From: Bacteroidota bacterium
GTDB lineage: Bacteria; Bacteroidota; Bacteroidia; Bacteroidales; Paludibacteraceae
Length of the DNA: 64,000 nt
Reading direction: 5' to 3'
NCBI GenBank assembly: GCA_021779195.1
Contig: JAJYBB010000013.1
Coordinates: 1 to 64,000, forward strand
In this document: positions 13,792-31,384 of the stretch, one piece after another
How positions within the stretch are numbered: the first letter of the stretch is position 1
Layout: each line of letters starts with the position of its first letter
The notes under the pieces: generated by a model
What the model saw: the letters and a program-made list of their open reading frames with translations, nothing else
The model's database searches: none
Told to the model about the DNA's origin: nothing
Position numbers and translations under genes: made by a program

Positions 13792-16700
13792 ATGAATCGA
13801 CCGAAGATTAAAATTGTTTTCATCTTGGCTATACTTTTTCAACTCGAAGGTGCTTTTGCCCAATCCAATTTAATTTCAAACTGGAATGCGGGTACATTGA
13901 CAGGAATCGGATCGAAACCAACAGATGTGGGATGGCTTTGTACTCCGAACGGTTCGCTTCCTTGGAATCAGGCAAATGCAACTTCAGGAAGTCGTTTTTT
14001 AGATTATAATGTATCGGGAGGGCAAACTGGTTTTATTTACAATTCGACAATTTTTACCGGTCGATTAATGTATATTCGCTGGGATAGTGGTAATTCAGGA
14101 AGCTATTATACTTATCCGGTAATGCTGACTACCTGTAAAAATTATGTGTTCAACTGGAAATACAGTTTAGCTGCCAATGCTACTTCTTCAACAATGACAG
14201 TAGGGGTTTGCAAGGCTACCGATGGTACAACCGGCACTATTTCTTCAAAACAATTTGTATGTTCAACAACCCTGAAAACTTTATTATCAGGTTCATTTGC
14301 ATTTACTCCACCGGTTTCAGGGCAATATTATTTGTCCTTCAATTCTACCACTAGTTCGATGAACGCCATAGCTGACTTATCGGTTACTGAAAATACGTCT
14401 AAATCATTATCTCTCTCGGCTTCATCGCTTTCATTCGATGACATTCATACGACGCGCTCGTTTCTGGTAAATGGTAACGCATTGACCGATTCAGTGAAAC
14501 TTTCTTCGCCGGCAGGAGTTAGTTTGAGCAAAAATAGTCTATCGGCAGGTGAAGTGCAATGTGGATTCATAATTACGGCAACATTTGATGGAAGCCGTTC
14601 CATTTCAAATGATTCAATCGTGATAAGCAGTGGAACTTCTTTGTCAAAATCGATCAAAATCAGATCTGTTTCGGGTGATGCAGCGTGTTTTACTCCGCTT
14701 TATTCCGATAAAGCCGATTTGATAAGCGATCCATGCATCAATAGTTTAGATAACTTTTCAGGTTGGGGAACAAAATCGCTCGATTCTTTATCAACTTATT
14801 GCGGAAAATATTGTGGAAAAATATCAAATGGCACAGGTTCGATCGATTATAACCTTACTTTAACTCCATTCACAAAATACAGAATGAGAGCTATGGTGAA
14901 AACAATAGGAGGGTCATTTCAAATCGGACTATCGAAATATAATGGAAGCTCTGCTGATCTAGATCAGGTTTTTAATACCAACGGAATCTGGCAGGCTGTT
15001 GATTTTACTTTTGAAACAGGACAAACAGTTGCGGGAGCATTGACATTTTTCAATAATTATCTACGAGATGGAACTACGGGCTATATTGATAATTGGGAGC
15101 TTTATGCTATTGGATCGGTGGATGGAAATGATACAATAATATCGACTGATCAAATTCCTGAAACTACCGTAAAAACTACTATTCGTGAAATGTTGGTGCA
15201 TCATCTTCCGTATGCCGAAAGTAAATTCGTATCTTCTGGAGGATATTTTGGAAATGGACAAAGTGTTGAACATGGTGCCCGAACTAATGCCGATTATGCA
15301 TTGATTTATGCATTTATATATAAAAAATGTCAGGATCAACCACTTCCTAACGGATTGACTTTTGAAACTGTAAAGCAACATGCCTTGGATGCAATTCGCT
15401 ATTCGTATAGTACACATAAAGCCATTAATGCTAAAACCTGTACCGATGGAGTGAATTGGGGCATCGTGTGGGAGTCGTCACTCTGGTCGGAATCATTGGG
15501 ATATGCCGCCTGGTTGTTGTGGCCTGATCTGACGGATGCCGATAAAGCTGCCGTCAAGAAAGTGATTCTTGCAGAAGCAAATTATAATCTTTCACGTACT
15601 ATACCTACTGGAGTAAATTCCGACACAAAAGCTGAAGAGAATGGTTGGGATACAAACATTCTGGCTGTAGCAGCAGCCATGTTTCCCGAAGAGAAAAATG
15701 CAGAAGCATGGACATTGCGGTGTAAACAATTTGCTATGAACTCGTACAGTGTTGGAGCCGATTTGTACCGAAATAATCCTGTAAATGATGAGGTTGATGG
15801 TAAAACAGTAGCTGACTGGTATATAGGGGCAAATCTTTTTCCGGATTATGCATTGGAAAATCATAATTTCTTTCACACTTCCTATTTGAATATTCCTATT
15901 CAGGAAATGTCTGAATCATTGTTGGCATACAAAGCCATTCAGAATCAAACCACACCTATCTTCCCCATTCCGGATGCATTGAAACATAATGTTACAAATG
16001 TATGGAATACCATGTTGAAAGAATTGATTATGGCTGATGGTATTTTGGCTATGCCCAATGGTAACGATTGGTCGATGTATATTTATGATGAACTTTCAAC
16101 TTATTCAGCTTTAGCTTGTATATATCGTGATCCTGATGCACTTATGCTTGAAAGTATTATTTTGCAATGGGCAAAATACCGGCAGTCGACTACTGGCGAT
16201 GGAGCTTTCCTTTTGAATCCAGATGTTGCTGAACGACGTATGGCAGTAACTGGTCGAAGGTTGGTGTTCGCATATCTATATCACGATTTCTACCCTACGA
16301 ATGAAATGATTGCTACGAAATGGAGCGATTTCAGCAAAAAACATGAAATGACAAAATTATTACCCTTCAGTAATATTATCCGAAATAGCAATGATGATAA
16401 GTTTGTTACATTCTCCTGGTTTCAATCGGTAGATGGAACGAGTTACAAATCGTACATGGGCATGGTATCGCCTAATAATGCTAATTATAGCAATATTGTA
16501 TTCCCTTTTAAAACCTCAAATACCGGAAACTTTACCGGCTATATTGATGTATCTGGACAAACACGCAATGCGTCTTTTATTTCAAATTCTTTTGTCATGT
16601 ATCCTAAAAGTTTTTCAACAACAGGGAAACTTAGTGTTACAGGTGGTAGTCTGACAAAGTACCTGACTTTTTATTCAACGCCGGGTAAAGCCACTATATA

Positions 16701-17946
16701 TCAAGAAGATATGGTTGGTGCAAAATCTGGAACCATTACCAAGGATGGCGGGTTAATGCTGGGTATCACCACAGATGTTTTGACAAAAATATCGCGGAAT
16801 ATTTATTCGCAAGCAGGGAATATCACTTCCAATGGAGATATACTCAGTACTTTAACGGGCAATTGGGTGAATGTTGATAATGTATTGGGAATGGTGGTGA
16901 ATGGAGGTAATGGAATCGCATTTGGAGAAAAAGAATTAAGCACTTCGATTTACGTTTCGAAGTTGTATGGTTCATATTCTACAACTCCAAAACCATTTAA
17001 TTCGGGCGATCTGGTTTTCTCTCGTTCGGCTATTGTCTATCCGAATGTCGATGCAACTACAACGCAATTATTGGCTTTAAAAGAAAAATATCCTGTTGTT
17101 GTTGCAGGATGGAAAGCTACAGCAGCCCAAGATCCCGATGGACGTCGTTATTTGGTTCTTTCAAATTTCAGGTCATCTGTTTCAACTCCTGTAACTCTAT
17201 CTTTTCCGGAGGGAGCTCCGGTTTATGACAGGGTCACCACCGTTACCGACTCTACAGGTAGCACTACTTTTAATACCATGACCAATGCATCCGCTGTCAA
17301 CGAATTATATGCCTATGTAAAAACCGGAGCTGACACGCTTCTGGCTGTTCAGGGTGATAATCCCTATTCCGTTTATGTGAAAAATCCGAATGCGGTGGAT
17401 GTTTCTTCGGGCATTTCAATTTGGAATGAAGGGCATTATCAAACCCTGAATACCATTTTAAAACCCAATGAATGCAAGTTGGTCTATTTGGAGAACAACC
17501 TTTTGGTTGCTGATACCACTCAATTTCCGGGGGGTTACAGAAATATTTCGCGTGGAAAACAAATCATTGCCGATGACCAGTGGCCTGAACATTTTCCATT
17601 TGCCATGATTGATGATGTGGATAGTACTTATTATCAATCACTTATTTTGCCTACAGCGACTACACCCGAAAATCTGACCATTCGTTTGTGGGGATTATAT
17701 ACCTGCGATAAATTAATCGTAAAATCAGTTCAAAACATTGGCCCAAAAGATATTTTGGTTCAGACTTCAACCGATGGCACAACTTTTACGACTGTTGGAG
17801 TTGCTACTTTATTGAATACAACTACCGAACAAGCCGTGAATTTTACAGCATCGGATGCCAAATATCTAAGAATTAAAATTAATTCAACTTATGGATCTAA
17901 AAATGTCGGCATAGCGTCGATAGGCTTATTTGGCTATCCAAAATAA
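13792..17946 (+). CDS. Large secreted polysaccharide lyase-like protein (toroid plus beta-sandwich) with N-terminal binding modules
   Basis: 1384 residues with a signal peptide ending AFAQ. In order I see: the shared module NLISNWN...GRLMYIRWD (about 25-200); the shared Ig-like module (about 203-297); a CBM-like beta domain (about 300-445, ending TGYIDNWELYAIG); a helical, toroid-like region (about 455-835) with EHGARTNADYAL, AEENGWDTNILA and ENHNFFHTSYL; an extended beta-sandwich (about 845-1190); and a C-terminal discoidin-like domain (about 1250-1384). Toroid plus beta-sandwich is the layout of several polysaccharide lyase families (PL8-like, heparinase-like), and NHNFFH could supply catalytic Asn/His. 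I cannot assign a numbered family. No T9SS sorting tail is seen at its end. The next gene follows after 6 bp. Confidence 0.6.
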   Translation: MNRPKIKIVFILAILFQLEGAFAQSNLISNWNAGTLTGIGSKPTDVGWLCTPNGSLPWNQANATSGSRFLDYNVSGGQTGFIYNSTIFTGRLMYIRWDSGNSGSYYTYPVMLTTCKNYVFNWKYSLAANATSSTMTVGVCKATDGTTGTISSKQFVCSTTLKTLLSGSFAFTPPVSGQYYLSFNSTTSSMNAIADLSVTENTSKSLSLSASSLSFDDIHTTRSFLVNGNALTDSVKLSSPAGVSLSKNSLSAGEVQCGFIITATFDGSRSISNDSIVISSGTSLSKSIKIRSVSGDAACFTPLYSDKADLISDPCINSLDNFSGWGTKSLDSLSTYCGKYCGKISNGTGSIDYNLTLTPFTKYRMRAMVKTIGGSFQIGLSKYNGSSADLDQVFNTNGIWQAVDFTFETGQTVAGALTFFNNYLRDGTTGYIDNWELYAIGSVDGNDTIISTDQIPETTVKTTIREMLVHHLPYAESKFVSSGGYFGNGQSVEHGARTNADYALIYAFIYKKCQDQPLPNGLTFETVKQHALDAIRYSYSTHKAINAKTCTDGVNWGIVWESSLWSESLGYAAWLLWPDLTDADKAAVKKVILAEANYNLSRTIPTGVNSDTKAEENGWDTNILAVAAAMFPEEKNAEAWTLRCKQFAMNSYSVGADLYRNNPVNDEVDGKTVADWYIGANLFPDYALENHNFFHTSYLNIPIQEMSESLLAYKAIQNQTTPIFPIPDALKHNVTNVWNTMLKELIMADGILAMPNGNDWSMYIYDELSTYSALACIYRDPDALMLESIILQWAKYRQSTTGDGAFLLNPDVAERRMAVTGRRLVFAYLYHDFYPTNEMIATKWSDFSKKHEMTKLLPFSNIIRNSNDDKFVTFSWFQSVDGTSYKSYMGMVSPNNANYSNIVFPFKTSNTGNFTGYIDVSGQTRNASFISNSFVMYPKSFSTTGKLSVTGGSLTKYLTFYSTPGKATIYQEDMVGAKSGTITKDGGLMLGITTDVLTKISRNIYSQAGNITSNGDILSTLTGNWVNVDNVLGMVVNGGNGIAFGEKELSTSIYVSKLYGSYSTTPKPFNSGDLVFSRSAIVYPNVDATTTQLLALKEKYPVVVAGWKATAAQDPDGRRYLVLSNFRSSVSTPVTLSFPEGAPVYDRVTTVTDSTGSTTFNTMTNASAVNELYAYVKTGADTLLAVQGDNPYSVYVKNPNAVDVSSGISIWNEGHYQTLNTILKPNECKLVYLENNLLVADTTQFPGGYRNISRGKQIIADDQWPEHFPFAMIDDVDSTYYQSLILPTATTPENLTIRLWGLYTCDKLIVKSVQNIGPKDILVQTSTDGTTFTTVGVATLLNTTTEQAVNFTASDAKYLRIKINSTYGSKNVGIASIGLFGYPK

Positions 17947-17952
17947 ATAAAA

Positions 17953-19023
17953 ATGAACGATATGAGTCTAAGAATGAAAAGGATAATTTTTTTATTGAGT
18001 TTTCAGTGTTATTTGTTGGTTGCTTTTTCGCAAATTCCGAATTCAGATATGATACTGATAAAGGCTGGTAGTTTTATTATGGGCAATAGTTCATTTGCCC
18101 GTGAATCGCCTACCAGAACATTGAATATTAGTCAATTCTATATGAGTAAAAACGTTGTTACCAATGCTCAGTTTGCAGCGTTTTTAAATGCTTATGGTAG
18201 TTCAATTGTTAAGGATGGAGAATTTGCAGGAAAACCAATGTTTAAAATTGATTCGTGGGGAATTATAAACAATAACGGGACTTGGCAGGCGGCAGCTGGT
18301 TACGACTTGTTTCCTATGATTGAAGTTACCTGGTATGGAGCAAATGAATTTTGCAAAGTTTCAGGCGGTCGTTTACCCACTGAAGCTGAATGGGAATATG
18401 CAGCTAAAGGTGGACCGACCCAGCAATCATACACGTATAGCGGGAATAACACCCCAACAGTTGTAGCCTGGTATTACGATAATTCCGGATTGATAAATCA
18501 TCAGGTTGGATTAAAAGCTGCAAATAGTCTTGGTTTATTCGATATGAATGGGAATGTGTACCAATGGTGTTCAGATTGGTTTGGTCGTTATACTGATGCA
18601 GGAACTTCCGGAGATTCAGATCCCAAAGGACCTTCATCAGGAGTTTCAAAAGTAATTCGTGGAGGTTACCGGTCAATAGGGTATGGAGATTTACATTTAA
18701 CAAATCGTGAAAGTCTATCGCCTGACGAATCGTACAATTTTGTTGGATTTCGGTTGGTGAAAGACTTGATTAGTGCTGTTGAAAACCCGAAAGACGATGC
18801 CAAAATTTTAGTTTTTCCCAATCCGGCAAGGCAATACATTAATATTAATTCTACTGCAAATATTGAATCTATTAAAATATTCGATGGACAGGGAAAACTA
18901 ATTAAAAATATCGCCGGAAATAGTAAAAATATTTCGCTTGTCGACTTCTCGGCGGGAGTATATTTTATGAAAATACTTGTCAAATCAAAATTAACGATTC
19001 GAAAATTTGAAGTAGTCAATTAG
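17953..19023 (+). CDS. Secreted SUMF1/FGE-like domain protein with T9SS sorting tail
   Basis: 356 residues: signal peptide (MKRIIFLLSF..., ATG alternatives at 17962 and 17974), an SUMF1/formylglycine-generating-enzyme-like domain (about 25-265) and a C-terminal T9SS sorting domain (VFPNPARQYI to the end). SUMF1 hallmarks are GGRLPTEAEWEYAAKGG, GNVYQWCSDW, VIRGGY and a final GFRLV. The active-site cysteines of true FGE, expected between RGG and GFR, are absent, and no sulfatase is encoded nearby. Sulfatase activation is therefore unlikely; a binding or structural role, or another chemistry on the cell surface, is more probable. It starts 6 bp after the lyase-like gene, so the two are co-transcribed. 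Confidence 0.75.
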   Translation: MNDMSLRMKRIIFLLSFQCYLLVAFSQIPNSDMILIKAGSFIMGNSSFARESPTRTLNISQFYMSKNVVTNAQFAAFLNAYGSSIVKDGEFAGKPMFKIDSWGIINNNGTWQAAAGYDLFPMIEVTWYGANEFCKVSGGRLPTEAEWEYAAKGGPTQQSYTYSGNNTPTVVAWYYDNSGLINHQVGLKAANSLGLFDMNGNVYQWCSDWFGRYTDAGTSGDSDPKGPSSGVSKVIRGGYRSIGYGDLHLTNRESLSPDESYNFVGFRLVKDLISAVENPKDDAKILVFPNPARQYININSTANIESIKIFDGQGKLIKNIAGNSKNISLVDFSAGVYFMKILVKSKLTIRKFEVVN

Positions 19024-19349
19024 CATTTACTTTTACGGGCTGCGATATATACTGAAATTTGGCTGAGATTTAAATTTCCAGTCGAGCATTATTGGCTTCA
19101 ATTATTCTATCCAATTGAACCTTTTTTTTAAATTATTCTATCAAAACCATATCAAATTAGTCAATTCATCCTCTCCTGAGAACGAATGGTTTATTGGAAT
19201 TAGAATTTTTCTCCTTGCAGTTAGTGCATTTTTACAATCAATTTCAATCAATGTTAATACGAACGAAAATTTATTCTAATTGGTTTATTATGGGTTATTT
19301 GTTCTACTTTTATGACTTAATTCTCCTCCTTTAATCAGTATTGAAATTC
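19024..19349. other. Intergenic spacer without a gene
   Basis: About 325 bp between the SUMF1-like gene and the promoter of the duplicated protein. It is AT-rich. I see no coding frame of merit on either strand, no terminator-quality hairpin and no repeat. Confidence 0.4.
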
Positions 19350-19357
19350 TATTTTTG
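19350..19357 (+). promoter_or_regulatory. -7 promoter element for the duplicated secreted protein
   Basis: The plus strand reads TATTTTTG, 57 bp before the chosen ATG at 19415. It lies almost on a longer in-frame start at 19355, which is therefore unlikely. Confidence 0.45.
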
Positions 19358-19414
19358 TGCCAAAGAGTTTTGATTACCATAAAACAAATTCTAATTCTAA
19401 AAAAATTTTTTGTC

Positions 19415-22400
19415 ATGAAAAAAATTACTTTCATTTTATCATTGTTCTTTACAGCAATGATGTTTTTTCCAGTCAACGCCCAGAATCTGCTTGCGGGATG
19501 GGATGGAAATGGGAAAACAGGTACAGGGTCTCGTCCCGACAGTATTGGATGGCAAAGCGACACTCAAACTGCAATCCCGTGGTCAGTTGCGAATAGTTCC
19601 GGAGGAAGCCGATTCAGAGATTATAATGTTTCTGGTGGTTTTACCGGATTTACCAATGAGTTAGATGGTTCAACTTCTACCACCCGCCAATTAATGTTTC
19701 GCTGGGATGCCAGTGCTTATTCAAAATCTTATTATGCTTATCCTGTAACTTTACAGGCTTGTAAAATGTACACTTTTAGTTTCGATTATGTTTGTGGTGG
19801 TAGTGCAACTCCTCCTCAGAATATCACTGTAGGTATCAGTTCCACGGTAAGCGGAACTGGTAGGCTAAGTTCCCAAACTTTTACGTCGACAAGTAAAAAT
19901 AATGTTTACCGTCATGGTACTTATACATTTTCATCAACTGCTGCAGGGACATATTATCTAACCTTTAATGGGGCATGGGCATGGTTTGGAGTAACGAATC
20001 TTAATTTGTCTTTAAGTACTGATCCCAATATTGTTTACAATCCAGCATCCATTGCGTTTTCGAATGTTAATAAATCGGTTCAGATTACAGTAACAGGAAA
20101 TGCCCTTACAAATGATATTTCAATAGCTGCTCCTGCCGGAATCACATTGGATAAAACTGCAATTGCTGCCACCGATGCACCTTGTGGTGTTACCTTTACG
20201 GCATCTTTAAATTATTCAGCTCCGCTGACAGCCGATTCAATTACACTTACAAGTGGTACATTGGTTAAAAAAATTCCGTTTACTTATACTAAACCTAATT
20301 TGTCAGTTTTTGAACAGAATATTGAGGTTGAGAAGAATGGAAATACTTATCCATTAAATGTTTTATCCGTTAATAATACGGTAGATTCATTATATGTTAT
20401 TCCATCTAAAGGATTTACAGTATCCAAAAATAATTATGCTGCATCTGATTTTGTAAATGGTTCGTTGAGTATTAATGTTGGTACAACAGCCTTAGCCGGA
20501 ACTTCAGGCACATTAATTCTCAAAGGTACAAATTCGGTGGTGTTCGATACTGTTAATGTCTCGACTGTAGTTCCTTATACTCGTTATTATATACGACAAA
20601 ATACAAGTAATTTGTTATTAAGCAATCTTACAGGTGGTACAGCTCCGGTAATTAGAGATTCATTGGGTCTTGTTTCTCAAAAATTCTTCTTCCGTAAAGT
20701 AAATGTAAGCCCAGCTTCTTCTATCGATACGGTATATATAGTTCAGGACAGTTTATATCGTGTTATGCGAAAATCTACTGCTAACGCTTGGAGTACTGAT
20801 TTTGGTGTTCCATCAGCCAATTCAAAATGGATTAAAAAATATTTAGGGAATGGATTATTTACTTTAACAAATACAATAACAAACTCAGTATTAGGTTCTG
20901 ATTTACTCACTTCGGGGAGTAGTTTGTATGATAATAAAACCTGGGTAGCAGGAGGAAATAGTGAATGGAAAATTATTTCTACTACTTCGAATCAAAATTT
21001 GATGGCTGGATGGGATGGCAATGGAAAAACAGGTGCAGGCTCACGCCCTGACAGTATTGGTTGGTTTAGCGATACCCAAAGTGCAATTCCATGGAATACA
21101 GCCAATAGTACCAGCGGTAGCCGTTTCAGAGATTTTAGTGTTACGAATGGTTTTACCGGATTTACCAATGAAACAGATGGATCAATTTCTTCTACCCGTC
21201 AGTTAATGTTTCGTTGGGATGGCAGTGCCTACTCAAAATCGTATTATGCTTATCCTGTAAATTTGGAAACAGGGAAAACATATACCTTAACTTTTGATTA
21301 TGTTTGTGGCGGAAGTGCAACTCCTCCTCAAAATTTAACAGTAGGAATAAGTACTACAGTAAGCGGAACTGGCAGGTTGAGTTCGCAAACTTTTACATCA
21401 ACCAATAAAAATACAGTTTTCCGACAGGGTACTTACACTTTCACAACCACTAAAACCGGTACAAATTATATTACTTTTAATGGTGCCTGGGCTTGGTTTG
21501 CAGTAACAAATCTTAACATGACTGCAGTTAACAATCCAAATATTCTTGTATCACAGTCATCTTTAGCATTATCAAATGTAAATAAATCAGCTACGGTAGC
21601 TGTAAACGGAAATGCTTTAACCAGCGACATTACAATAACTGCCCCTGCAAGTATAACATTGGATAAAACTACAATTAATGCTGCTGCTGCACAAAATGGT
21701 GTCTCGTTTACTGCAAGTTTAAATTATAGCGCTCCATTAACTACCGATACCATTACATTGACAAGTGGCACCTTAGTAAAAAAAATTGCTATTTCCTACA
21801 CGAAACCAAGTTTGTCCGTTTACGAACAAAAAATTGAAGTTGAAAACAACGGGAATATGTATCCATTAAATGTTTCGTCGGTAAATAATACCGTTGATTC
21901 ATTGTATGTTATTCCTTCCGTCGGGTTCACGGTATCTAAAAATAACTTTGCAGCTTCTGATTTTGTAAATGGTTCGTTGAATATAAATGTTGGATCTACC
22001 GCTTCAGTCGGTTCTTCGGGGACATTAATCCTTAAAGGAACAAATTCGGTTATTTTCGATACAATTCATGTTTCAATGGTTACACCTTATACGCGTTACT
22101 TTATTCGTCAGAATACCAGTAAGTTGTTGTTAAGTAATTTAACGGGTGGATCTGCTCCAGTTATCAGAGATTCGTTGGGATTAAGCTCGCAAAAGTTCTT
22201 CTTCCGCAAAGTAAATGTAAGTACAGCTTCAATGACCGATACCGTTTACATTGTTCAAGACAGTTTATATCGCGTATTGCGGAAATCTACTGCAAATGCA
22301 TGGACTACTGAATTTGGAATGCCATCGGCTAATTCAAAATGGACAAAACAAGATCTTGGAAATGGGTTATGCACTTTGACAAATACCGTAACTAACTTAG

Positions 22401-22720
22401 TATTAGGATCTGATGCAATTGTTTCGGGTAGCAGTTTGTACGATAATAAAACTTGGACTGCAGGAGGTAATACTGAATGGTTGGTGCTTGCCGTTTCTTC
22501 AGTTCCAACGGCAGTTAATTTGCCTTCTTCCCAAATGAAAGTGCTTGTGAATAATCACAATGTCACAGTTTTGGGAGTTTACAGTTTTACTATTTATAAT
22601 GTTCAGGGCATGATAGTGGCTGACATAAGAAATAATAATTCTGGTACTGTAGTTTCTCTAAATCAAGGTGTATATATTGTAAAATCCCCGAGCCAGGTTC
22701 AAAAAGTGATTGTGGAATAA
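19415..22720 (+). CDS. Secreted non-catalytic binding protein made of two tandem 504-residue units
   Basis: 1101 residues, signal peptide ending NAQ at residue 23. The body is a head-to-tail duplication with a period of 504 residues: unit 1 starts NLLAGWDGNGKTG (24), unit 2 NLMAGWDGNGKTG (528). Each unit has the shared N-terminal module (about 190 aa), the Ig-like module (ITVTGNALTNDISI...), a second beta module (YEQ/FEQ-IEVE...NGNTYPLNV) and a beta-rich domain (RYYIRQNTSNLLLSNLTGG...) that could be a trefoil-like lectin. The C-terminal 60 residues look like a T9SS sorting domain (GVYSFTIYNVQGMIV...GVYIVKS). I see no catalytic domain. A surface glycan-binding role is inferred from module sharing with the neighbouring enzymes. 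Confidence 0.7.
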   Translation: MKKITFILSLFFTAMMFFPVNAQNLLAGWDGNGKTGTGSRPDSIGWQSDTQTAIPWSVANSSGGSRFRDYNVSGGFTGFTNELDGSTSTTRQLMFRWDASAYSKSYYAYPVTLQACKMYTFSFDYVCGGSATPPQNITVGISSTVSGTGRLSSQTFTSTSKNNVYRHGTYTFSSTAAGTYYLTFNGAWAWFGVTNLNLSLSTDPNIVYNPASIAFSNVNKSVQITVTGNALTNDISIAAPAGITLDKTAIAATDAPCGVTFTASLNYSAPLTADSITLTSGTLVKKIPFTYTKPNLSVFEQNIEVEKNGNTYPLNVLSVNNTVDSLYVIPSKGFTVSKNNYAASDFVNGSLSINVGTTALAGTSGTLILKGTNSVVFDTVNVSTVVPYTRYYIRQNTSNLLLSNLTGGTAPVIRDSLGLVSQKFFFRKVNVSPASSIDTVYIVQDSLYRVMRKSTANAWSTDFGVPSANSKWIKKYLGNGLFTLTNTITNSVLGSDLLTSGSSLYDNKTWVAGGNSEWKIISTTSNQNLMAGWDGNGKTGAGSRPDSIGWFSDTQSAIPWNTANSTSGSRFRDFSVTNGFTGFTNETDGSISSTRQLMFRWDGSAYSKSYYAYPVNLETGKTYTLTFDYVCGGSATPPQNLTVGISTTVSGTGRLSSQTFTSTNKNTVFRQGTYTFTTTKTGTNYITFNGAWAWFAVTNLNMTAVNNPNILVSQSSLALSNVNKSATVAVNGNALTSDITITAPASITLDKTTINAAAAQNGVSFTASLNYSAPLTTDTITLTSGTLVKKIAISYTKPSLSVYEQKIEVENNGNMYPLNVSSVNNTVDSLYVIPSVGFTVSKNNFAASDFVNGSLNINVGSTASVGSSGTLILKGTNSVIFDTIHVSMVTPYTRYFIRQNTSKLLLSNLTGGSAPVIRDSLGLSSQKFFFRKVNVSTASMTDTVYIVQDSLYRVLRKSTANAWTTEFGMPSANSKWTKQDLGNGLCTLTNTVTNLVLGSDAIVSGSSLYDNKTWTAGGNTEWLVLAVSSVPTAVNLPSSQMKVLVNNHNVTVLGVYSFTIYNVQGMIVADIRNNNSGTVVSLNQGVYIVKSPSQVQKVIVE
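19484..22498 (+). repeat. Intragenic tandem duplication, period about 1512 bp
   Basis: Nucleotides from about 19484 and from about 20996 encode nearly the same 504-residue unit. The DNA copies differ mostly at third codon positions, so the duplication is old enough to have diverged while the protein was conserved. Confidence 0.85.
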
Positions 22721-22736
22721 TGGCTTTTTAATTCAT

Positions 22737-22779
22737 TTTGCAGCGGTTAATTATTCATTTAGCCGCTGCAATTTTTTTG
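22737..22779 (+). terminator. Rho-independent terminator after the duplicated protein gene
   Basis: A stem of about 12 bp (TTGCAGCGGTTA at 22738-22749 with TAGCCGCTGCAA at 22760-22771) is followed by T7. It splits the secreted block into two transcription units, so the BNR and GH105 genes need their own promoter. Confidence 0.85.
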
Positions 22780-22834
22780 TTGCTTGACCTTTCTTTTTGT
22801 TTGATATAGTTTCTTGTATATTAATATAATTTTA

Positions 22835-25825
22835 ATGAAAGCGAACATATCTCTTTTAATGCTTATTTTATTTGGCATCGTGATTTCAACCATTGCCCAA
22901 ACCAATTTGATAGCAAATTGGAATGGGAATGGAAATATTAATATTACTTCTTCTTATCCAGATAAATATGGATGGGCAGTAACGGTTGGCACTTTTAATT
23001 ATGCAAATTCAACGAGTGGAATTCGTTGGAGCGATGTTTCTTCTTCATCAAATCCTCAACATAAATTAAATGGCGTTGTTTATACAGGTCGGTTGCTTAT
23101 GGTGCGTTGGGATGGTGCCGGATCTACCTCACTTTCTTCAGTTTACAGTTATCCTGTATTACTTGAAGCTAATAAAAGCTATAAATTTTCATGGATATAT
23201 GAATGGTGGAATAATGCTTCAGTTCCTGTTTATACAGTTGGCATCAGTGAGGATAAAGCTGCTTTAAATTCGGTTATTACTAAAAATTTTACATGCTCAT
23301 CAACCAAAAATTTATTAGTTAACGATTCGCTCAGTTTTCATGTAATTACTGCAGGAACATATTATTTAACTTTGAAGGTGAATAGTTTGGCGGTTCTCGG
23401 TGCGATAGGAAATTTATCTATTATCCAACAACCGGCTGTTTTACAATCAACTGTATCATCTGTCTTTCTGAATTATTATGAAAATCAAAAGTCTTTTGAT
23501 ATATTACCCGATGGTTCGACTGATTCTATTCAAATCGATGTTCCGCAAGGAATAATTGTTTCATTACACAGCATGGGTTCGTCTGGGGGTACTTTGACCG
23601 TTTTTTCAGCCGATTCGACAAGTGTTTCGGGGAATATTGTGATTTCTCAGGGCATTCATCAACTGATTATTCCGATTAAAACAAGCTTTCCTTCAAAATT
23701 TTTATCGAATTCCAAATTACCTATTGACACATTGACCGTTGACGGAGCATGGTGTTGGTTTAACGATCCACGGGCAATTTATTACAAGGGAATCAAAGAA
23801 CAAACATACTTTACTTGGGTTGATAAAGCCGGAGACATGATGGTCGCATCGTATAATCACATAACACATGTTTATAATCAAAAATTACTTTATCCTAAAT
23901 TAGAGGAAGATGACCATGATGTACCTGCCATTTTTATTAGAAAAGATGGACGATTGGTGGTTTATTTTTCTAAACATACCACTGCTCCTGCTCACAGGTT
24001 TATCTCTACTTATCCCGAAGATATTTCATCATGGGGAAATGATTATCAATTTGGTGTGAATGTAACTTATCCTTATCCTTTTCAAGTTGGAGATTCTATT
24101 TATGTTTTTTACAGAGGCATTAACTGGCATCCTACACTGATTGTTTCTTCCGATAATGGTGTAACCATGGGAACGCCCCATCAGATAATTACCGGCGGCG
24201 GAGATCGACCTTATGCCCGTTATTGTCAGGATAAAACAGGTGCAATTCATATGGCTTTCACAACAGGACATCCTCGTAATGAACCTAATAACAAAATTTA
24301 TTATGTTTGTTTTAAAAATGGTAATTTTTACCGAGCGGATGGTACTTTTATTAAAAAATTTACGGGCGATTCTCTTTCTGCCCTGAGCATAAATAATAAT
24401 GATGCTGAAACGGTTTACAACGCAAACAACGGAAAAGGATGGATTTGGGATATTACTGTGGACTCATTAAACCATCCTGTTTTGGTTTATACTGCATTTC
24501 CCACAGATACGGATCATCGGTATTATTATGCACGATGGACAGGTACATCTTGGTTCTCAAAACAATTGACAAATGCCGGAAGATGGTTTCCTCAAACTCC
24601 CACTGGAACCACTGAACCCGAACCAAATTATTCGGGTGGAATTTCGCTTGATTATGATTATCCTTCAGTGGTTTATCTATCGAAACAAATTAAAGGTGTT
24701 TTTGAAATTTTAAAATTTACTACACCTGATCAAGGAGTTACCTGGGACTCTACTGCTGTTACTTGGAATACACCTTCCAATTTGGTGAATGTTCGTCCGA
24801 TCGTTCCTCGTCATCATAAAACGGGATTCTTTGATGTGCTTTGGATGAGGGGAACATATATTCACTATACCAATTATAATACTTCTGTGGTATTTAAAAT
24901 GGATTCTTTAGTCAATACTTTAGATAGCATTGTTTTGAATCAAAAGACAGTGGAGCTTTTCAAAGGTAATACTATCCAATTAAATGTTTCATTTTATCCA
25001 TTTATTACTCAGAATAAGGGTGTTGAATGGACTTCATCTGATGAAAATGTGGCGACAGTACAAAATGGACTTATTTTAGCCAAAAACTTAGGTGTTTGCA
25101 CAATAACTGCTACTGCCGGAAATGATATTTCAAGTTCCTGCAGGGTAACCGTTAATGAGCCCAATTACATTTCAAATGCTTTTTTTGATTTTGGGACTAC
25201 TTCTTCACCTGTTGCAGTGGGTGCCATTGGAATTAATGAAACGACGATGATGAACAGCAATAGTAATTATGGGTGGTTATCTGCAGTCAGTTCACGTGAC
25301 AGGGGAAGTGGAGAGTCGGATGAACTTCGCGATTTTAATATGTCATCAGGTAACGGAACATTTAAAGTATTGGTGAAAAATGGTAACTATGACGTTATTA
25401 TAAAACAAGGGGATTTAATGTATTTACATGATAATATGTCAGTTACTGTAAATGGACAATTAGCTGTTTCCGGTGTTACATCAGCCTTAGGCACGTTTGT
25501 TACCAACGAATTTCATGCTACTGCGGATCAGAATTTTTTGGAATTTTCTTTTGCTGATAATGGTGGTTCTGATGCAAATTGGGTCGTCAATTCACTGGCT
25601 TTGACAATGACTACCGAGAATAATATCCCTGATTCTTTCGATTATTCGGATAATAGCGTTCAAATGATTGTTTTTGATATTTCGGGAAGAGTGCTTTCCA
25701 GCCAGAAATTAAATGGCAGAAGTTATTATCAGGTTTTTAAAAAATTGAGTTTACCTCAAGGGGTATATTTAATTCAACTGCAATCAAAATCTGCATTTAA
25801 ACGACTTAAAATGCCTAAATACTAA
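22835..25825 (+). CDS. Secreted BNR-propeller (BNR_4) protein, putative polysaccharide lyase, with Big_2, CBM-like and T9SS domains
   Basis: 996 residues. Order: signal peptide (1-22); shared module NLIANWNGNG (about 24-195); Ig-like module (about 200-285); BNR_4-type beta propeller (about 290-690: DGAWCWFNDPRAIYY, EEDDHDVPAIF, ITGGGDRPYARYCQ, IWDITVDSLNHPVL, VPRHHKTGF); bacterial Ig-like group 2 (about 700-785: WTSSDENVATV); an FDFG-opening beta module like those of rhamnogalacturonan-active enzymes (about 790-930); T9SS tail. BNR_4 proteins include ulvan and rhamnose-glucuronate lyases (PL24/PL25/PL27-type), so a lyase is a reasonable guess; the subfamily is not proven. The gene start is the ATG at 22835. 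GH105 follows after 49 bp, which supports lyase action. Confidence 0.75.
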   Translation: MKANISLLMLILFGIVISTIAQTNLIANWNGNGNINITSSYPDKYGWAVTVGTFNYANSTSGIRWSDVSSSSNPQHKLNGVVYTGRLLMVRWDGAGSTSLSSVYSYPVLLEANKSYKFSWIYEWWNNASVPVYTVGISEDKAALNSVITKNFTCSSTKNLLVNDSLSFHVITAGTYYLTLKVNSLAVLGAIGNLSIIQQPAVLQSTVSSVFLNYYENQKSFDILPDGSTDSIQIDVPQGIIVSLHSMGSSGGTLTVFSADSTSVSGNIVISQGIHQLIIPIKTSFPSKFLSNSKLPIDTLTVDGAWCWFNDPRAIYYKGIKEQTYFTWVDKAGDMMVASYNHITHVYNQKLLYPKLEEDDHDVPAIFIRKDGRLVVYFSKHTTAPAHRFISTYPEDISSWGNDYQFGVNVTYPYPFQVGDSIYVFYRGINWHPTLIVSSDNGVTMGTPHQIITGGGDRPYARYCQDKTGAIHMAFTTGHPRNEPNNKIYYVCFKNGNFYRADGTFIKKFTGDSLSALSINNNDAETVYNANNGKGWIWDITVDSLNHPVLVYTAFPTDTDHRYYYARWTGTSWFSKQLTNAGRWFPQTPTGTTEPEPNYSGGISLDYDYPSVVYLSKQIKGVFEILKFTTPDQGVTWDSTAVTWNTPSNLVNVRPIVPRHHKTGFFDVLWMRGTYIHYTNYNTSVVFKMDSLVNTLDSIVLNQKTVELFKGNTIQLNVSFYPFITQNKGVEWTSSDENVATVQNGLILAKNLGVCTITATAGNDISSSCRVTVNEPNYISNAFFDFGTTSSPVAVGAIGINETTMMNSNSNYGWLSAVSSRDRGSGESDELRDFNMSSGNGTFKVLVKNGNYDVIIKQGDLMYLHDNMSVTVNGQLAVSGVTSALGTFVTNEFHATADQNFLEFSFADNGGSDANWVVNSLALTMTTENNIPDSFDYSDNSVQMIVFDISGRVLSSQKLNGRSYYQVFKKLSLPQGVYLIQLQSKSAFKRLKMPKY

Positions 25826-25874
25826 TGGATTATATATTAATAAATCACACTGATTTTAATATTTATTTTGTGTA

Positions 25875-27932
25875 ATGAAAAGCAAATTATTCATTTTGTT
25901 ACAATTTTCAACTTTCATATCTTTTAGTTTGCTTGGACAGCAAGTGTTTACTAAACAAGATGTTATAAGTAAAATGAAATTAGTAAATGATTTCTGGATT
26001 TCACAAAATCCCAATCCTGGAAATAATCAATGGGCACGATCGGCTTATTTTACTGGAGATATAGATTTTTATAAACTTTATCCCAAGGACAGTTATAAGC
26101 AATATGCCGAGTTATGGGCAAAAAACAATAACTGGACATTGAATGGTGGAATTTATACACGTGTTGCTGACAATCAAATTTCAGGTCAGACATATATCGA
26201 TTTATATAATCTTGATTTAATAAAACAACCTGCAAAAATTGCCAATATAAAGGCAAGTGTCGATTCGATGATTCATACTTCCAAATCGGATGATTGGTGG
26301 TGGGTCGATGCATTGTACATGGCTATGCCTGTATTTGCAAAAATTGGAGTGTTGAGCAATAACGATAGCGTATATTTCAATAAGATGTATCAATTATATT
26401 CCAATACGAAAATTACCCGCGGATTATTTAATTCAAATGAGGCGTTATGGTATCGGGATGAATCATTTAAACCACCCTTTCAGACTCCGAGTGGAAAAAA
26501 CTCTTTCTGGGCACGTGGAAATGGCTGGGTTTTAGCAGCTCATGTCAAAGTGCTTCAGTTATTACCCCAGCAAGATAACCACCGAGCTGAATATGTTGAC
26601 ACATTTCAAAAAATGGCAGCAGCGTTAAAAAGTCGGCAACGTTCAGATGGGTTTTGGAATGTAAGTTTGGATGATTCAACCGATTATGGGGGAATTGAAA
26701 CCTCTGGAACTTCATTTTTTACGTATGCAATTGCTTGGGGAATTAATAATGCTTTGTTGGATTCTGACACATATTATCCTGTGGTTGCAAAAGCCTGGAA
26801 TGCTTTGTCAACAATAGCTGTTCAGCCCAACGGATTTTTGGGATATGTGCAAGGGGTTGGGTCGGGACCTTCATCATCGCAGCCGGTAACTGTAAGTTCT
26901 ACAGCTGATTTTGGGGTAGGAGCGTTCTTGTTGGCAGGTACAGAGGTCGCTAAATTAGCCAATGGAGTTATGCCGATTCCTTCAAATTTCTCAGTTCAGG
27001 CTATTACAGTAAAGGATAATACCCATATTAAAGTATCATTTTCTAAAAAAATAAATTTATTTTCTGCACTTTTGCCTGCTAATTATCTGATTAATAATGT
27101 GATTGTTTCGAGTGTGAATCAGTCTGATAACGACAGTTCGATTGTACTTACTGTTGATACTTTAAATTTCGGTAAATATAGTTTGCAGGTTAATAATGTT
27201 TTTAGTTCAGATAGTGTAGCTGTTGAGTCAGATGTTTCAACCTCATTTGTATATTCTGGAATTGCAGGTGTAACAGCAAGTGGTTTTGAATCAGGAACCG
27301 CGAATACCCCAGATAAAACCATTGATTTTGATTTTTCAACCCGTTGGTCAGCTTATGGAATCGGGCAATGGATTATGTACAATTTGGGTGAATCAAAATT
27401 AGTAAATTCTGTTGATCTTGCTTTTTATAATGGCGATATCCGAAAAGGCTATTTTTCGATTAGTCTGTCAAATCTTACCGAGGATAGCACAGCATTTCAC
27501 ACGGTTGTTGAAGGAGCTTCAAGCGGAACGACCAAAAATTTTGAGAATTATAAATTTATCCCACAACCCGCTAGGTTTGTTAAAATTACAGGAAAAGGGA
27601 ATAATCAGAATTTATGGAATAGCATTACTGAAACCCGGATAAATTTTTATTCTATTCCGACTTCTATAAAAATGCTTGATTATCAAAACCTACAATTTAA
27701 TGTTTTTCCAAATCCCTTTTCTGGAAATAAACTCAATATAATAAGTCAAAATATTGATGGACGATGCAATTTACGTATTTTATCTTTATCGGGGGACGAG
27801 CTGTTTTCAAGAAATATCGAACTAAAAAATAATAAAGCTACAGTTGATAATCTGAGTTTTACCAAGGGTTTATATTTGATTTCTTTAAAAAATTATTCAT
27901 TTTCAGGCTCTTTATTGCTTTTTGCCAATTAA
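25875..27932 (+). CDS. GH105 unsaturated uronyl/rhamnogalacturonyl hydrolase with discoidin-like and T9SS domains
   Basis: 685 residues. After a signal peptide (1-22), a GH105 (alpha/alpha)6 domain spans about 25-360: DDWWWVDALYMAMP (Asp139-Asp145 region, catalytic Asp), NSFWARGNGWVLAA near 210, and GIETSGTSFFTYAI. It is followed by a small beta domain (about 368-465), a discoidin-like module (about 468-595: ASGFESGT...DFSTRWSAYGIGQWI) and a T9SS sorting tail (FNVFPNPFSGNKL). GH105 enzymes remove the 4,5-unsaturated uronic acid left at chain ends by polysaccharide lyases, which ties this gene to the upstream lyase-like proteins. Secretion by T9SS rather than periplasmic location is notable for this normally intracellular or periplasmic step. 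Confidence 0.88.
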   Translation: MKSKLFILLQFSTFISFSLLGQQVFTKQDVISKMKLVNDFWISQNPNPGNNQWARSAYFTGDIDFYKLYPKDSYKQYAELWAKNNNWTLNGGIYTRVADNQISGQTYIDLYNLDLIKQPAKIANIKASVDSMIHTSKSDDWWWVDALYMAMPVFAKIGVLSNNDSVYFNKMYQLYSNTKITRGLFNSNEALWYRDESFKPPFQTPSGKNSFWARGNGWVLAAHVKVLQLLPQQDNHRAEYVDTFQKMAAALKSRQRSDGFWNVSLDDSTDYGGIETSGTSFFTYAIAWGINNALLDSDTYYPVVAKAWNALSTIAVQPNGFLGYVQGVGSGPSSSQPVTVSSTADFGVGAFLLAGTEVAKLANGVMPIPSNFSVQAITVKDNTHIKVSFSKKINLFSALLPANYLINNVIVSSVNQSDNDSSIVLTVDTLNFGKYSLQVNNVFSSDSVAVESDVSTSFVYSGIAGVTASGFESGTANTPDKTIDFDFSTRWSAYGIGQWIMYNLGESKLVNSVDLAFYNGDIRKGYFSISLSNLTEDSTAFHTVVEGASSGTTKNFENYKFIPQPARFVKITGKGNNQNLWNSITETRINFYSIPTSIKMLDYQNLQFNVFPNPFSGNKLNIISQNIDGRCNLRILSLSGDELFSRNIELKNNKATVDNLSFTKGLYLISLKNYSFSGSLLLFAN

Positions 27933-27941
27933 AACATTGCT

Positions 27942-28910
27942 TTATTCCAATTTTATTACCCGTTTGCTTTCTGTATAGCTCCCTAAAATTCCGATTCCGC
28001 CTGTAACATTGCTGTACACCTGAACTGGTTCTGAGAAAAAATTATTGTTTTTAGTCGAAGCACGTGTTTGCAGATACAAGTAATAACTTTTACTTATGCT
28101 TTGTAATTTTACAATCATTTCCTTTTGAGGAAAAAGGAACGAATTCCCGGCTGCATAGTGGTCGATATTATCGGAAATGCTGAAGGTTAACGGATACGTT
28201 TTTCCGTTGAATAAGTCATCAGAAAAGACATTGTATTTGTTTGACGTGAGGGAAGTAGGAGGTCCTACTGAATTTTGATTTGCATTCCCCGAAACTATAT
28301 CATCAAACGAAAAATTATAATTTTCGTAACTGCCTATAATTGAATTTGTTTTGGTAATTACTACCAATCGATAATAGTTTCGAATGTCAGGCATGTCAGT
28401 GAAATGAAGGATAATTTTTAAAGTCCGGCTTTGTGAATATCCGATTGTGTCTATCTTTTGGGTCATCTTATTTATGTTAATTAGCGGTGTACTTATTCCG
28501 GTGAAAACCGAAGTAGTATCAATCGACATGATGGCAGGGGCAGGAACAATATTGGTTCCGCACGATAAACTTTGTTTTCCGGGAGCTTTAACCAATAGAC
28601 TGATTGAGTCGCCTACTGAAGGATGATAACTTCCCACATAATATCCGCTATCGGTATGTACTAAATTCTCTTTTGGCAATCCATCTACCATCAGTGTAAT
28701 GGTGGAATTGTCCACGGTATTGAACGTGGTTTGATTACTCAGAAAGAACCTACTTTCAGTCAGTTGAGCTTTTACAACCGAATCGGGTGTAATAATGCTA
28801 TTGATTACTAATAATGGTTCGGTGATCTTTCCATTGAACTCGATCACTTTTTGGCAAGAACTAACCATAAGCATCAAGATCGGCAGAATATATAGAATTT
28901 TTTTTTTCAT
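27942..28910 (-). CDS. DUF4249 lipoprotein
   Basis: 322 residues. A lipoprotein signal (MKKKILYILPILMLMVSSC, lipid on Cys19) is followed by the DUF4249 beta-rich body (EPLLVINSIITPDSVVKAQL...). DUF4249 lipoproteins are typically encoded beside a TonB-dependent receptor, as here, and are thought to be its surface partner, analogous in position to SusD. The substrate is unknown. The start is the ATG at 28910; a TTG at 28925 would lengthen it before the signal peptide. It lies 26 bp after the receptor gene and converges with the GH105 gene with only 9 bp between stops. Confidence 0.85.
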   Translation of the reverse strand: MKKKILYILPILMLMVSSCQKVIEFNGKITEPLLVINSIITPDSVVKAQLTESRFFLSNQTTFNTVDNSTITLMVDGLPKENLVHTDSGYYVGSYHPSVGDSISLLVKAPGKQSLSCGTNIVPAPAIMSIDTTSVFTGISTPLININKMTQKIDTIGYSQSRTLKIILHFTDMPDIRNYYRLVVITKTNSIIGSYENYNFSFDDIVSGNANQNSVGPPTSLTSNKYNVFSDDLFNGKTYPLTFSISDNIDHYAAGNSFLFPQKEMIVKLQSISKSYYLYLQTRASTKNNNFFSEPVQVYSNVTGGIGILGSYTESKRVIKLE

Positions 28911-28936
28911 TTTAACTATTTTCAAGGGATGAGTTT

Positions 28937-31384
28937 TTAAAATTTAAACGTATAGCTTACCGATGGAATGATCGGGAAGATTGAAAGTTGCACTAATTGT
29001 TTTTGATCGGTGTATTTTCCGGTTGCAGCATCGTAAACCGTGTTTGTCCTTACGGTTGTCAAGAATGGATTCAATCGGTCATAAGCATTGTAAATACTGA
29101 TGTTCCATGTTCTCGTTCCATGTTTTAATTTTTTATGAAAATTGATTCCCAAATCTAATCGGTGTGTCGGTTCGTAGCGATAATTATCTCGGGAACTGAT
29201 ATATGGTAAACTTGTTAAACTTTGAATGCTATTAAGCCCGCTTAATCCGTTATTGGTATCGGGTACAGGATTGCCAGCATAATTTTGCATGGCAAGTGTT
29301 CCCGCGTTACCGGTGCTATAAACCCAGGTAGCAGCTACGTCAATTCGTTCGTTAAATTTGTGCGAAATGACAATGCTTAAATCGTGTGTTCGATCATATT
29401 TTGCAGGGAAAACGAGTCCATTATTGAGCATTTGTCCGGGACGGTTGAATAAGCGTTCAGTTTTCGACCAAGTGTAACCAATCCAGCCGGTAGTTTTACC
29501 TATTGATTTCTGAGCCAGAAATTCAACGCCGTATGCCCAGCCTTCACCGATATCGACTTTATCTTCCCAGCCGGTGCTTGAACCGAAAAATGAAGCCCCA
29601 TCTTTATATTCAATCAGGTTATCCATCTTTTTATAGTATGTTTCCACTGATAAATCAATAAAATTCAATAAATTATAGAAAAATCCAAGTGAGACTTGTT
29701 GCGAAAGCATGGGTTTAATTCTTTTCGTAACCGGAACCCATAGGTCGGTCGGAAGTTCAATATTGCTGTTTGAAAGCAAATGAATATATTGACTCATAGA
29801 GGCATAACCGGCTTTTATGGAAAAGTTGTCTGTTAATAAATATCGAAAACTAAGTCGCGGTTCAAGTGATTGATAAAACTGACTTTGAACAAAGAAAGTG
29901 GAATAATGCAGTCCGATATTGGCTTTAAACGAAGGAGTTATACTAATATTATCCTCGGCATAAGCAATGGCTTCCTGAGAATTTATATTTTGGTCGCCAA
30001 TGGTTGTGTCCATTGGTTGCGTGCCACCGGTAGTTTGTGCCACAGTAACGCCCGGGCGAAAGGTATGGTGTGTGTAATTTACACCGAATTTTATATCGTG
30101 ATCGGGGTTTGGCAAATAATCGAAATCGACTTTTGCAGCATAATCTTCAATACCCGAGTTGAACCCTAAATCGATGGAAGAATTTGAGGTTGAAGGAGGC
30201 GTTTTGATACTGGTTTGGGACTTAGTCCCGATTCCCAGCAAAAAGTTGTAACGGGTATAATATCCGGTGGTATTCATAAATAGTTTGTGCGACAAAATGT
30301 GATTCCAGCGTGCTGCAGCTAAGATATTTCCCCAATTCCAATTCATATTCAGCCATGTGCTTTGTGAACTATTGTCTGTATTGGTTATGCTTTGATTGAT
30401 GTTGGCATAAATCACATCGCTACCCGTAAAAAAACTTAAATACAAACGGTCCATATCTGAAAATTTATGACTCAATTTGGCATTGATATCATAAAAATAA
30501 TAACCGGCAGAAGTTTTTTCCATGCCTGGTTGTTTTGAAAACATTGATTTGATGATTGGTTGTGCTATAATATCGGCATAAGACCGGCGGGCTGAAATAT
30601 TAAAACTTGTTTTTTCGTTGACAATAGGTCCTTCAAAATTTATTTTTGAAGAAATCAATCCGATGGTAACGTTTCCATGATACGAATGTGTGTTTCCGTC
30701 ATTCATTGTAATATCAACAACAGATGAAAGCCGTCCGCCGAATCGAGCCGGAAAACTGCCTTTGTAAAGGGTTACATTTTTGATGGCATCGGCATTGAAA
30801 ACTGAAAAAAAGCCGAACACATGATTTACGTTATAAACCGGAACACCATCTAATAAGATTAGGTTTTCATCCGGTCCGCCACCACGAACATAAAAGCCGG
30901 CAGAACCTTCGGTGCCGGCTTTTACTCCCGGCAGTAATTGTAATGCCTTGAGCACATCCGTTTCGCCGAAAAGCGTTGGTATTGATTTGATCTGGCTTAT
31001 GGGTACATCTATTGCACTCATTTGTGCACTCTGCACCCCGAATTGTTTACGATTACCCACAACCTTTATTTCCGACAATTCAGTGTTGGGCATCAGTTTC
31101 TGATTGATAATTGTATCTTTTTGTAAAGTAAATTGCTGATTTACTGAATTATATCCTACATATGAAAAGTTGATATTTACTTTTCCTTTTGGTAAAGTCA
31201 ACGAGTAAAATCCGTAAGAATTGGTAATGGTACCTCGTGCAGTGTTTTTGTTAATAATCGAAGCATTCAATAAAGTTTCACCAGTTTTCAGGTCGGTAAT
31301 ATATCCGCTTATGGTGTAACTTTGAGAAAAGGAATGGTTCAAAATTATAATCAGAAAAATAAATAATAAATTGATTTTCTTCAT
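28937..31384 (-). CDS. TonB-dependent receptor paired with DUF4249
   Basis: 815 residues: signal peptide (1-20), carboxypeptidase-regulatory-like domain (YTISGYITDLKTGETLLNAS, about 22-105), plug (about 120-225, with FYVRGGGPDENLILLDG and FPARFGG) and an outer-membrane barrel ending in PSVSYTFKF. The ligand cannot be told. It differs from SusC-type receptors, which pair with SusD; the DUF4249 partner points to another class of cargo such as a peptide, metal complex or small oligomer. It faces the secreted glycan block tail to tail, so it is not in the same operon and a functional link is not shown. Confidence 0.87.
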   Translation of the reverse strand: MKKINLLFIFLIIILNHSFSQSYTISGYITDLKTGETLLNASIINKNTARGTITNSYGFYSLTLPKGKVNINFSYVGYNSVNQQFTLQKDTIINQKLMPNTELSEIKVVGNRKQFGVQSAQMSAIDVPISQIKSIPTLFGETDVLKALQLLPGVKAGTEGSAGFYVRGGGPDENLILLDGVPVYNVNHVFGFFSVFNADAIKNVTLYKGSFPARFGGRLSSVVDITMNDGNTHSYHGNVTIGLISSKINFEGPIVNEKTSFNISARRSYADIIAQPIIKSMFSKQPGMEKTSAGYYFYDINAKLSHKFSDMDRLYLSFFTGSDVIYANINQSITNTDNSSQSTWLNMNWNWGNILAAARWNHILSHKLFMNTTGYYTRYNFLLGIGTKSQTSIKTPPSTSNSSIDLGFNSGIEDYAAKVDFDYLPNPDHDIKFGVNYTHHTFRPGVTVAQTTGGTQPMDTTIGDQNINSQEAIAYAEDNISITPSFKANIGLHYSTFFVQSQFYQSLEPRLSFRYLLTDNFSIKAGYASMSQYIHLLSNSNIELPTDLWVPVTKRIKPMLSQQVSLGFFYNLLNFIDLSVETYYKKMDNLIEYKDGASFFGSSTGWEDKVDIGEGWAYGVEFLAQKSIGKTTGWIGYTWSKTERLFNRPGQMLNNGLVFPAKYDRTHDLSIVISHKFNERIDVAATWVYSTGNAGTLAMQNYAGNPVPDTNNGLSGLNSIQSLTSLPYISSRDNYRYEPTHRLDLGINFHKKLKHGTRTWNISIYNAYDRLNPFLTTVRTNTVYDAATGKYTDQKQLVQLSIFPIIPSVSYTFKF

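Follow-up and report, generated by a model that had tools for sequence, protein, structure and literature searches.

Which polysaccharide is attacked by five neighbouring genes of a Paludibacter-like Bacteroidota genome, three of which encode large secreted proteins that share an N-terminal module and differ in their catalytic parts? The genes, P0001 to P0005, all lie on the + strand at 13792-27932 of the window analysed here, the first 64,000 nucleotides of contig C20 of a 3.1-Mb genome. Our favoured reading, held with somewhat better than even confidence, is that the proteins of this block, most of them exported by the type IX secretion system (T9SS), act on a polysaccharide containing rhamnose (Rha) and glucuronic acid (GlcA). 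The open reading frames (ORFs) and starts of an earlier sequence-only reading of the window were confirmed; P0003 and P0004 lie inside ORFs that open with TTG at 19355 and 22814. The genes, with the shared module called M1, are:

13792-17946, +: P0001; signal peptide, M1, Ig-like domain, carbohydrate-binding module (CBM) resembling 8xmz, 820-residue putative catalytic region (P1cat), F5/8 type C (F5/8C) domain
17953-19023, +: P0002; FGE-sulfatase fold, T9SS tail, no cysteines after the RGG motif
19415-22720, +: P0003; M1, Ig-like domain and a ricin-like-looking repeat, the whole set twice, then a weak T9SS tail
22835-25825, +: P0004; M1, degenerate Ig-like domain, BNR_4 propeller, Big_2, T9SS tail
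25875-27932, +: P0005; GH88/105 (unsaturated uronyl hydrolase family), F5/8C, T9SS tail

The propeller of P0004 and its coupling to GH88/105

The BNR_4 propeller that the sequence-only reading had placed in P0004 is borne out by a Pfam match with E 4.5e-36:

23690-24940, +: BNR_4 propeller; D366, H368, H388 and R434 invariant in 17 aligned sequences

A model of the domain built from five sequences is of moderate quality (pLDDT 70.7). The solved structures nearest to it are 5mum, 5mvh, 5uam, 5muk and 7esk, and it lies closest to the GH145/PL42 (Z 28-33) and PL25 (Z ~32) enzymes, followed by PL24 (Z 20-22). The propellers of PL42/GH145 and PL25 act on Rha-GlcA glycans (PMC8377490), and in the PL42 enzyme FoRham1 His85 serves as base and acid together with His105, Asp83, Tyr150 and the neutralising Arg166 (PMC8377490, PMC10951650). 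D366, H368 and H388 of P0004 are spaced identically to Asp83, His85 and His105, and remain invariant in an alignment that includes haloarchaeal relatives, whose genes sit in other settings; Y433 falls at the spacing of Tyr150, a Tyr that is not invariant among the 17 sequences. P0004 thus resembles PL42 and former GH145 (FoRham1, BT3686, BACINT_00347) in the modelled seven-bladed propeller and the Asp-x-His...(20)...His triad, but differs in having ~12-15% identity to them, a neutralising Arg off the PL42 spacing, and M1, Big_2 and a T9SS tail attached to the propeller. With the PL25 and PL24 ulvan lyases (PLSV_3936, LOR_107) it shares a BNR_4-type propeller and a His-His-Asp triad, but no ulvan context was seen in the window. 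Neither phmmer nor a profile search of the PDB matched any PL24, PL25 or PL42 chain. In modelled fold and triad P0004 appears to be like the PL42/PL25 group, of which it is a candidate member.

P0005, which begins 49 bases after P0004, matches Glyco_hydro_88 over nearly the whole profile (Pfam E 4.6e-76, positions 10-351 of 352), in agreement with the GH105 enzyme reported earlier, and also carries an F5/8C domain and a T9SS tail by Pfam and NCBIfam. Enzymes of GH88/105 act on 4,5-unsaturated uronic acids. The pairing recurs elsewhere. On pPP8 of Persicobacter psychrovividus a BNR_4 protein sharing 34.5% identity with P0004 directly precedes GH88, within a SusC/SusD locus containing uronate-catabolism genes, and in a Paludibacter relative (G024) BNR_4 lies next to GH88 on one contig (C117) and is fused to GH88/105 in a single protein (L146:787-3216) situated between two P1cat gene pieces. 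Since GH88/105 enzymes take 4,5-unsaturated uronic acids, this adjacency and fusion favour lyase chemistry.

P1cat, a putative second lyase

Between its Ig-like domain and its C-terminus, P0001 contains three further regions:

14692-15120, +: CBM related to porphyran-binding 8xmz (P0001 residues ~301-443; phmmer E 2.4e-7)
15112-17571, +: P1cat, putative uronate lyase, with invariant E615/E616/N617, N690/H691, H695, Y698 and R816
17581-17907, +: F5/8C (galactose-binding) domain, by Pfam

The 8xmz-like CBM, missing from the earlier description, is present in many proteins related to P0001. The listed residues of P1cat are invariant in 13 homologues, and Asn/His/Tyr sets are of the kind used by the toroid lyases PL5, PL8 and PL17. 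The toroid plus beta-sandwich layout that the sequence-only reading proposed, and the Asn/His/Tyr residues, would liken P1cat to PL37, PL8 and PL12/21, from which it differs in having no Pfam model or solved structure that matches by sequence. Comparison with PL8, heparinase II/III, GH105 and DUF2264 by hhalign gave no match; the control, PL8 against heparinase, was equally blank, and the negative therefore decides nothing. From its residues and gene neighbours, uronate lyase is the best inference for P1cat.

P1cat occurs in 10 of 100 relatives and a few other Bacteroidota, and was not found in the viral contigs scanned. It lies adjacent to, or a few genes from, GH105 in G000, G028, G047, G005 and G024, with GH35 and GH2 also nearby in G005 and GH2 and GH106 in G024; a stand-alone relative lies near GH28, GH2 and GH105, and the P1cat locus of G493 contains two SusC/SusD sets, DUF2264, GH43, GH2 and GH30_2. 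Two proteins (L088 and L089, the latter fused to an acetyl-esterase) match the N-terminal half alone, which suggests that this half is a separable domain. A relative from the haloarchaeon Halocatena marina is 32% identical over ~640 residues. It is annotated as hypothetical, and its plasmid locus (L104/L120), which also encodes BNR proteins, several sulfatases, GH78, rhamnose mutarotase and an annotated endo-xylanase, is a candidate for an ulvan-type locus in an archaeon.

The shared module M1

M1 is ~178 residues long and occurs four times in P0001, P0003 and P0004:

13867-14400, +: M1 copy 1 (P0001)
14392-14667, +: Ig-like domain after copy 1
19484-20023, +: M1 copy 2 (P0003; the copy modelled)
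20996-21535, +: M1 copy 3 (P0003)
22904-23431, +: M1 copy 4 (P0004)

The four M1-Ig copies align over 279 columns, 43 of them invariant; the two P0003 copies share 74-77% identity, and copies from different proteins 34-38%. A search of the genome with a single copy recovered the others at E 1e-128, 4e-48 and 1e-23, values that exclude chance resemblance; elsewhere in this genome, C2 and C28 contain two further copies that have diverged more. Alignment and search together confirm the shared module of the sequence-only reading. The Ig-like domain said to follow each copy is clear in P0001 and P0003 but degenerate in P0004, and is widespread in large proteins of the genus that lack M1.

As had been suspected, M1 falls in none of the families named by Pfam or by PDB sequence searches: Pfam gave no match above cut-off, and a profile search of the PDB returned essentially antibody chains only, which were taken as chance. 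Structure prediction and fold comparison, both proposed in the earlier reading, were more informative. An AlphaFold2 model from 41 homologues (pLDDT 94.5, pTM 0.90) is a CBM-type beta-sandwich whose nearest folds include CBM4, CBM16, CBM22, CBM61 and 8xmz, all of similar size (Z 11-13). These Z values are tied, and Cry-protein C-terminal domains, among other beta-sandwiches, score equally, which supports the type of fold but singles out no CBM family. M1 differs from these CBMs in having no detected sequence relation to them; profile comparison with the 8xmz-like CBM gave no link (probability 2%) despite matching folds. Within the Pfam and PDB sequence searches M1 is thus uncatalogued, but the model suggests that it is probably an ordinary CBM and that it most likely binds sugar.

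M1 is rare, being found in 4 of 345 genomes of the phylum (E 1e-10), and a combined M1-Ig model matched in 13 of 100 relatives (E 1e-8); it was not found in the plasmids searched. Named carriers are mostly Flavobacterium, along with Mucilaginibacter, Chitinophaga, Leeuwenhoekiella, Lewinella, Botryobacter and Paludibacter, and the M1 proteins examined in them mostly carry glycan-acting domains (PF11790 enzymes, BNR_4, LamG). In Flavobacterium two M1 copies precede a PF11790 glycoside-hydrolase core. Within 10 kb in 21 such Flavobacterium loci, as scored by similarity to one annotated locus, are SusC (20/21), SusD (18/21), GH105 (16/21), GH16 (15/21), GH43 (14/21), DUF2264 (11/21) and GH2 (9/21), a gene set which we take to resemble type II arabinogalactan loci. 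The M1-Ig-BNR_4-Big_2 architecture of P0004 recurs in three other lineages, and a 296-residue protein encoded beside an M1-BNR_4 gene (L072) consists of M1 and a T9SS tail with no other recognised domain. A 2513-residue protein of G019 (L096:6514-14055) combines three copies of M1 with several of the Ig-like domain and two 8xmz-like CBMs.

P0002, P0003 and export

P0002, a secreted protein that the sequence-only reading did not mention, has an FGE-sulfatase fold (Pfam E 9.9e-46), but a sequence check of it and three orthologues found no Cys in the region after the RGG motif, where the active-site pair would lie. A role as sulfatase activator was rejected: the FGE-site cysteines are missing and there is no sulfatase among the block genes. 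Genes of this type, T9SS-tailed and without the FGE cysteines (L084/L085/L086), adjoin a P0001-family gene in four genomes. In P0003 no catalytic domain was recognised, nothing exceeding the Pfam or NCBIfam cut-offs; an assignment to PTHB1_GAE or similar was discarded, its Pfam scores being below cut-off. Of the proposal that the catalytic parts differ among the M1 proteins, the propeller of P0004 and the lack of a recognised catalytic part in P0003 are thus upheld, and the lyase-like part of P0001 is the putative one discussed above. T9SS tails had been noted on several members. Those of P0002, P0004 and P0005 exceed the curated Pfam/NCBIfam cut-offs, that of P0003 falls slightly short (20.6 versus 23 bits), and none was found in P0001.

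Transcription and gene association

A single operon was rejected as the default reading on account of one element:

22738-22771, +: terminator-like hairpin between P0003 and P0004 (consensus scan; 13 pairs and a T tract)

This was by far the strongest stem in the scan, in which the overall count of sites was not above that of shuffled sequences, and it separates P0003 from P0004, so that the block is probably not one operon. RNA folding showed nothing notable in the gap upstream of P0003.

On contig C20 the closest SusC/SusD pair identified is at 68.7-73.4 kb, ~41 kb downstream of the block, and none was found within the window. The sequence-only reading had taken this absence to set the system apart from ordinary polysaccharide utilisation loci, a distinction that does not survive comparison: M1 sits in SusC loci in nearly all of the Flavobacterium genomes, P1cat in the SusC/SusD locus of G493, and a BNR_4-GH88 pair in that of Persicobacter. 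Convergent with the block, at 27942-31384 (-), are genes for a DUF4249 protein and an 815-residue TonB-dependent receptor, which could be an uptake pair on the opposite strand. A hybrid two-component sensor (Reg_prop, HisKA, response regulator, AraC-type helix-turn-helix) is encoded at 49181-53524 (-), with no SusC/SusD identified nearby; such sensors control glycan loci. A GH20 hexosaminidase gene ~9 kb downstream of the block (36862-38706, +) shows no sign of membership.

Whether the genes belong together was addressed by co-occurrence. P0004-type BNR_4 genes are present in 17 of 48 same-genus genomes and in 9 of the 10 of these that have P1cat (hypergeometric P 1.2e-4, phylogeny not corrected for). 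The joint action proposed earlier gains from this figure, but the genes are usually unlinked and most P1cat relatives lack M1; the independent occurrence of the three genes across genomes, named beforehand as grounds for abandoning the idea, is thus observed in part. A functional association of the block genes is therefore likely and a fixed operon unlikely.

Proposed mechanism and substrate, and alternative readings

The scheme that we infer, in which the proteins would act jointly, is as follows. The target would most likely be a glycan that ends in Rha-GlcA, either a type II arabinogalactan or a gum-like one, to which the proteins would be held by M1, the F5/8C domains, the ricin-like repeats and the 8xmz-like CBM. 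The P0004 propeller would cut at GlcA, in a Rha-GlcA or related linkage, by beta-elimination; P1cat would act as another uronate lyase, one whose family is undescribed; and P0005 would remove the 4,5-unsaturated uronic acid left by the lyases. The enzymes (a PL42/PL25-like BNR_4 propeller and GH88/105) fit the uronic-acid polymer envisaged from the start. The further proposal that P1cat represents a new family of polysaccharide lyases for Rha/GlcA-type glycans, spread over Bacteroidota and one haloarchaeon, with M1 as a new CBM family by which such enzymes are steered, is tentative, its chances being a little short of even.

Several observations weigh against this scheme. P0004 has Gly449 at the spacing of the neutralising Arg of PL42 and PL25 (+81 from the first His), for which the invariant R434 or R465, mostly conserved among the 17 sequences, might substitute, and the propeller model is only moderate. 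By sequence, nothing in Pfam or the PDB matches the 820 residues of P1cat, a search with a 13-sequence profile included, and it has no detectable relative of known function; most P1cat relatives occur without M1; and in related genomes the P1cat and BNR_4 genes mostly lie far from each other or on different contigs. Substrate clues also differ among relatives, being arabinogalactan-like, ulvan-like, pectin-like (GH28) or, in Persicobacter, fucose-containing. The same machinery could instead serve an ulvan-like or other Rha/GlcA polysaccharide of algae or bacteria, as the sulfatases, GH78, annotated endo-xylanase and rhamnose mutarotase of the Halocatena locus, which ulvan breakdown needs, and the PL24/PL25 lyases among the nearest propellers would suggest. 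We consider this unlikely, as Pfam finds no sulfatase among the block genes, P0002 lacks the FGE active-site cysteines, and the best-supported M1 contexts and the G493 locus look arabinogalactan-like.

The lyase assignment of P1cat has its own competitor, a glycoside hydrolase or other toroid-fold enzyme, with GH88/105 serving the BNR_4 lyase only. This is doubtful; it would accord with the absence of any profile link to a lyase family (a comparison whose control failed), with the relative near GH28, GH2 and GH105 and with the one fused to an acetyl-esterase, but N617, N690-H691, H695 and Y698 resemble toroid-lyase residues and GH105 genes recur near P1cat. M1, in turn, might be a structural or anchoring beta-sandwich that binds no sugar and is shared through domain shuffling among T9SS cargo, given that the fold by itself says nothing on function and that its Ig-like partner is widespread without it. 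The rarity of M1, its ties to glycan-acting proteins and the M1-T9SS protein encoded beside an M1-BNR_4 gene make this distinctly improbable. A lack of joint action, with the three M1 genes encoding independent secreted proteins and being adjacent by chance, would agree with the hairpin and the usual lack of linkage; we nevertheless regard it as improbable in view of the P1cat/BNR_4 co-occurrence, the BNR_4-GH88/105 coupling and the P0001-P0002 synteny in four genomes.

The block has GH105 in common with arabinogalactan-type loci (GH105, GH16, GH43, DUF2264 (GH154)), which house M1 in Flavobacterium and the P1cat family in G493, but it lacks SusC/SusD, GH43, GH16 and DUF2264 and has T9SS-exported proteins instead. 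A literature search on arabinogalactan loci in Paludibacter yielded no relevant paper. On the best reading the block is a uronate-glycan degradation system of a known kind, in an incomplete version based on the T9SS and with a module and an enzyme from new families. Of what remains, the P1cat family, which has no name in the libraries searched, is of most interest. If the Rha/GlcA reading is correct, a binding-module family and a probable lyase family, both uncatalogued, would gain a testable substrate class, for which the contexts in Flavobacterium, Paludibacter, Persicobacter and haloarchaea provide a short list of candidate glycans, and the tandem and fused forms of BNR_4-GH88/105 would take the PL24/25/42 propeller group past its present members.

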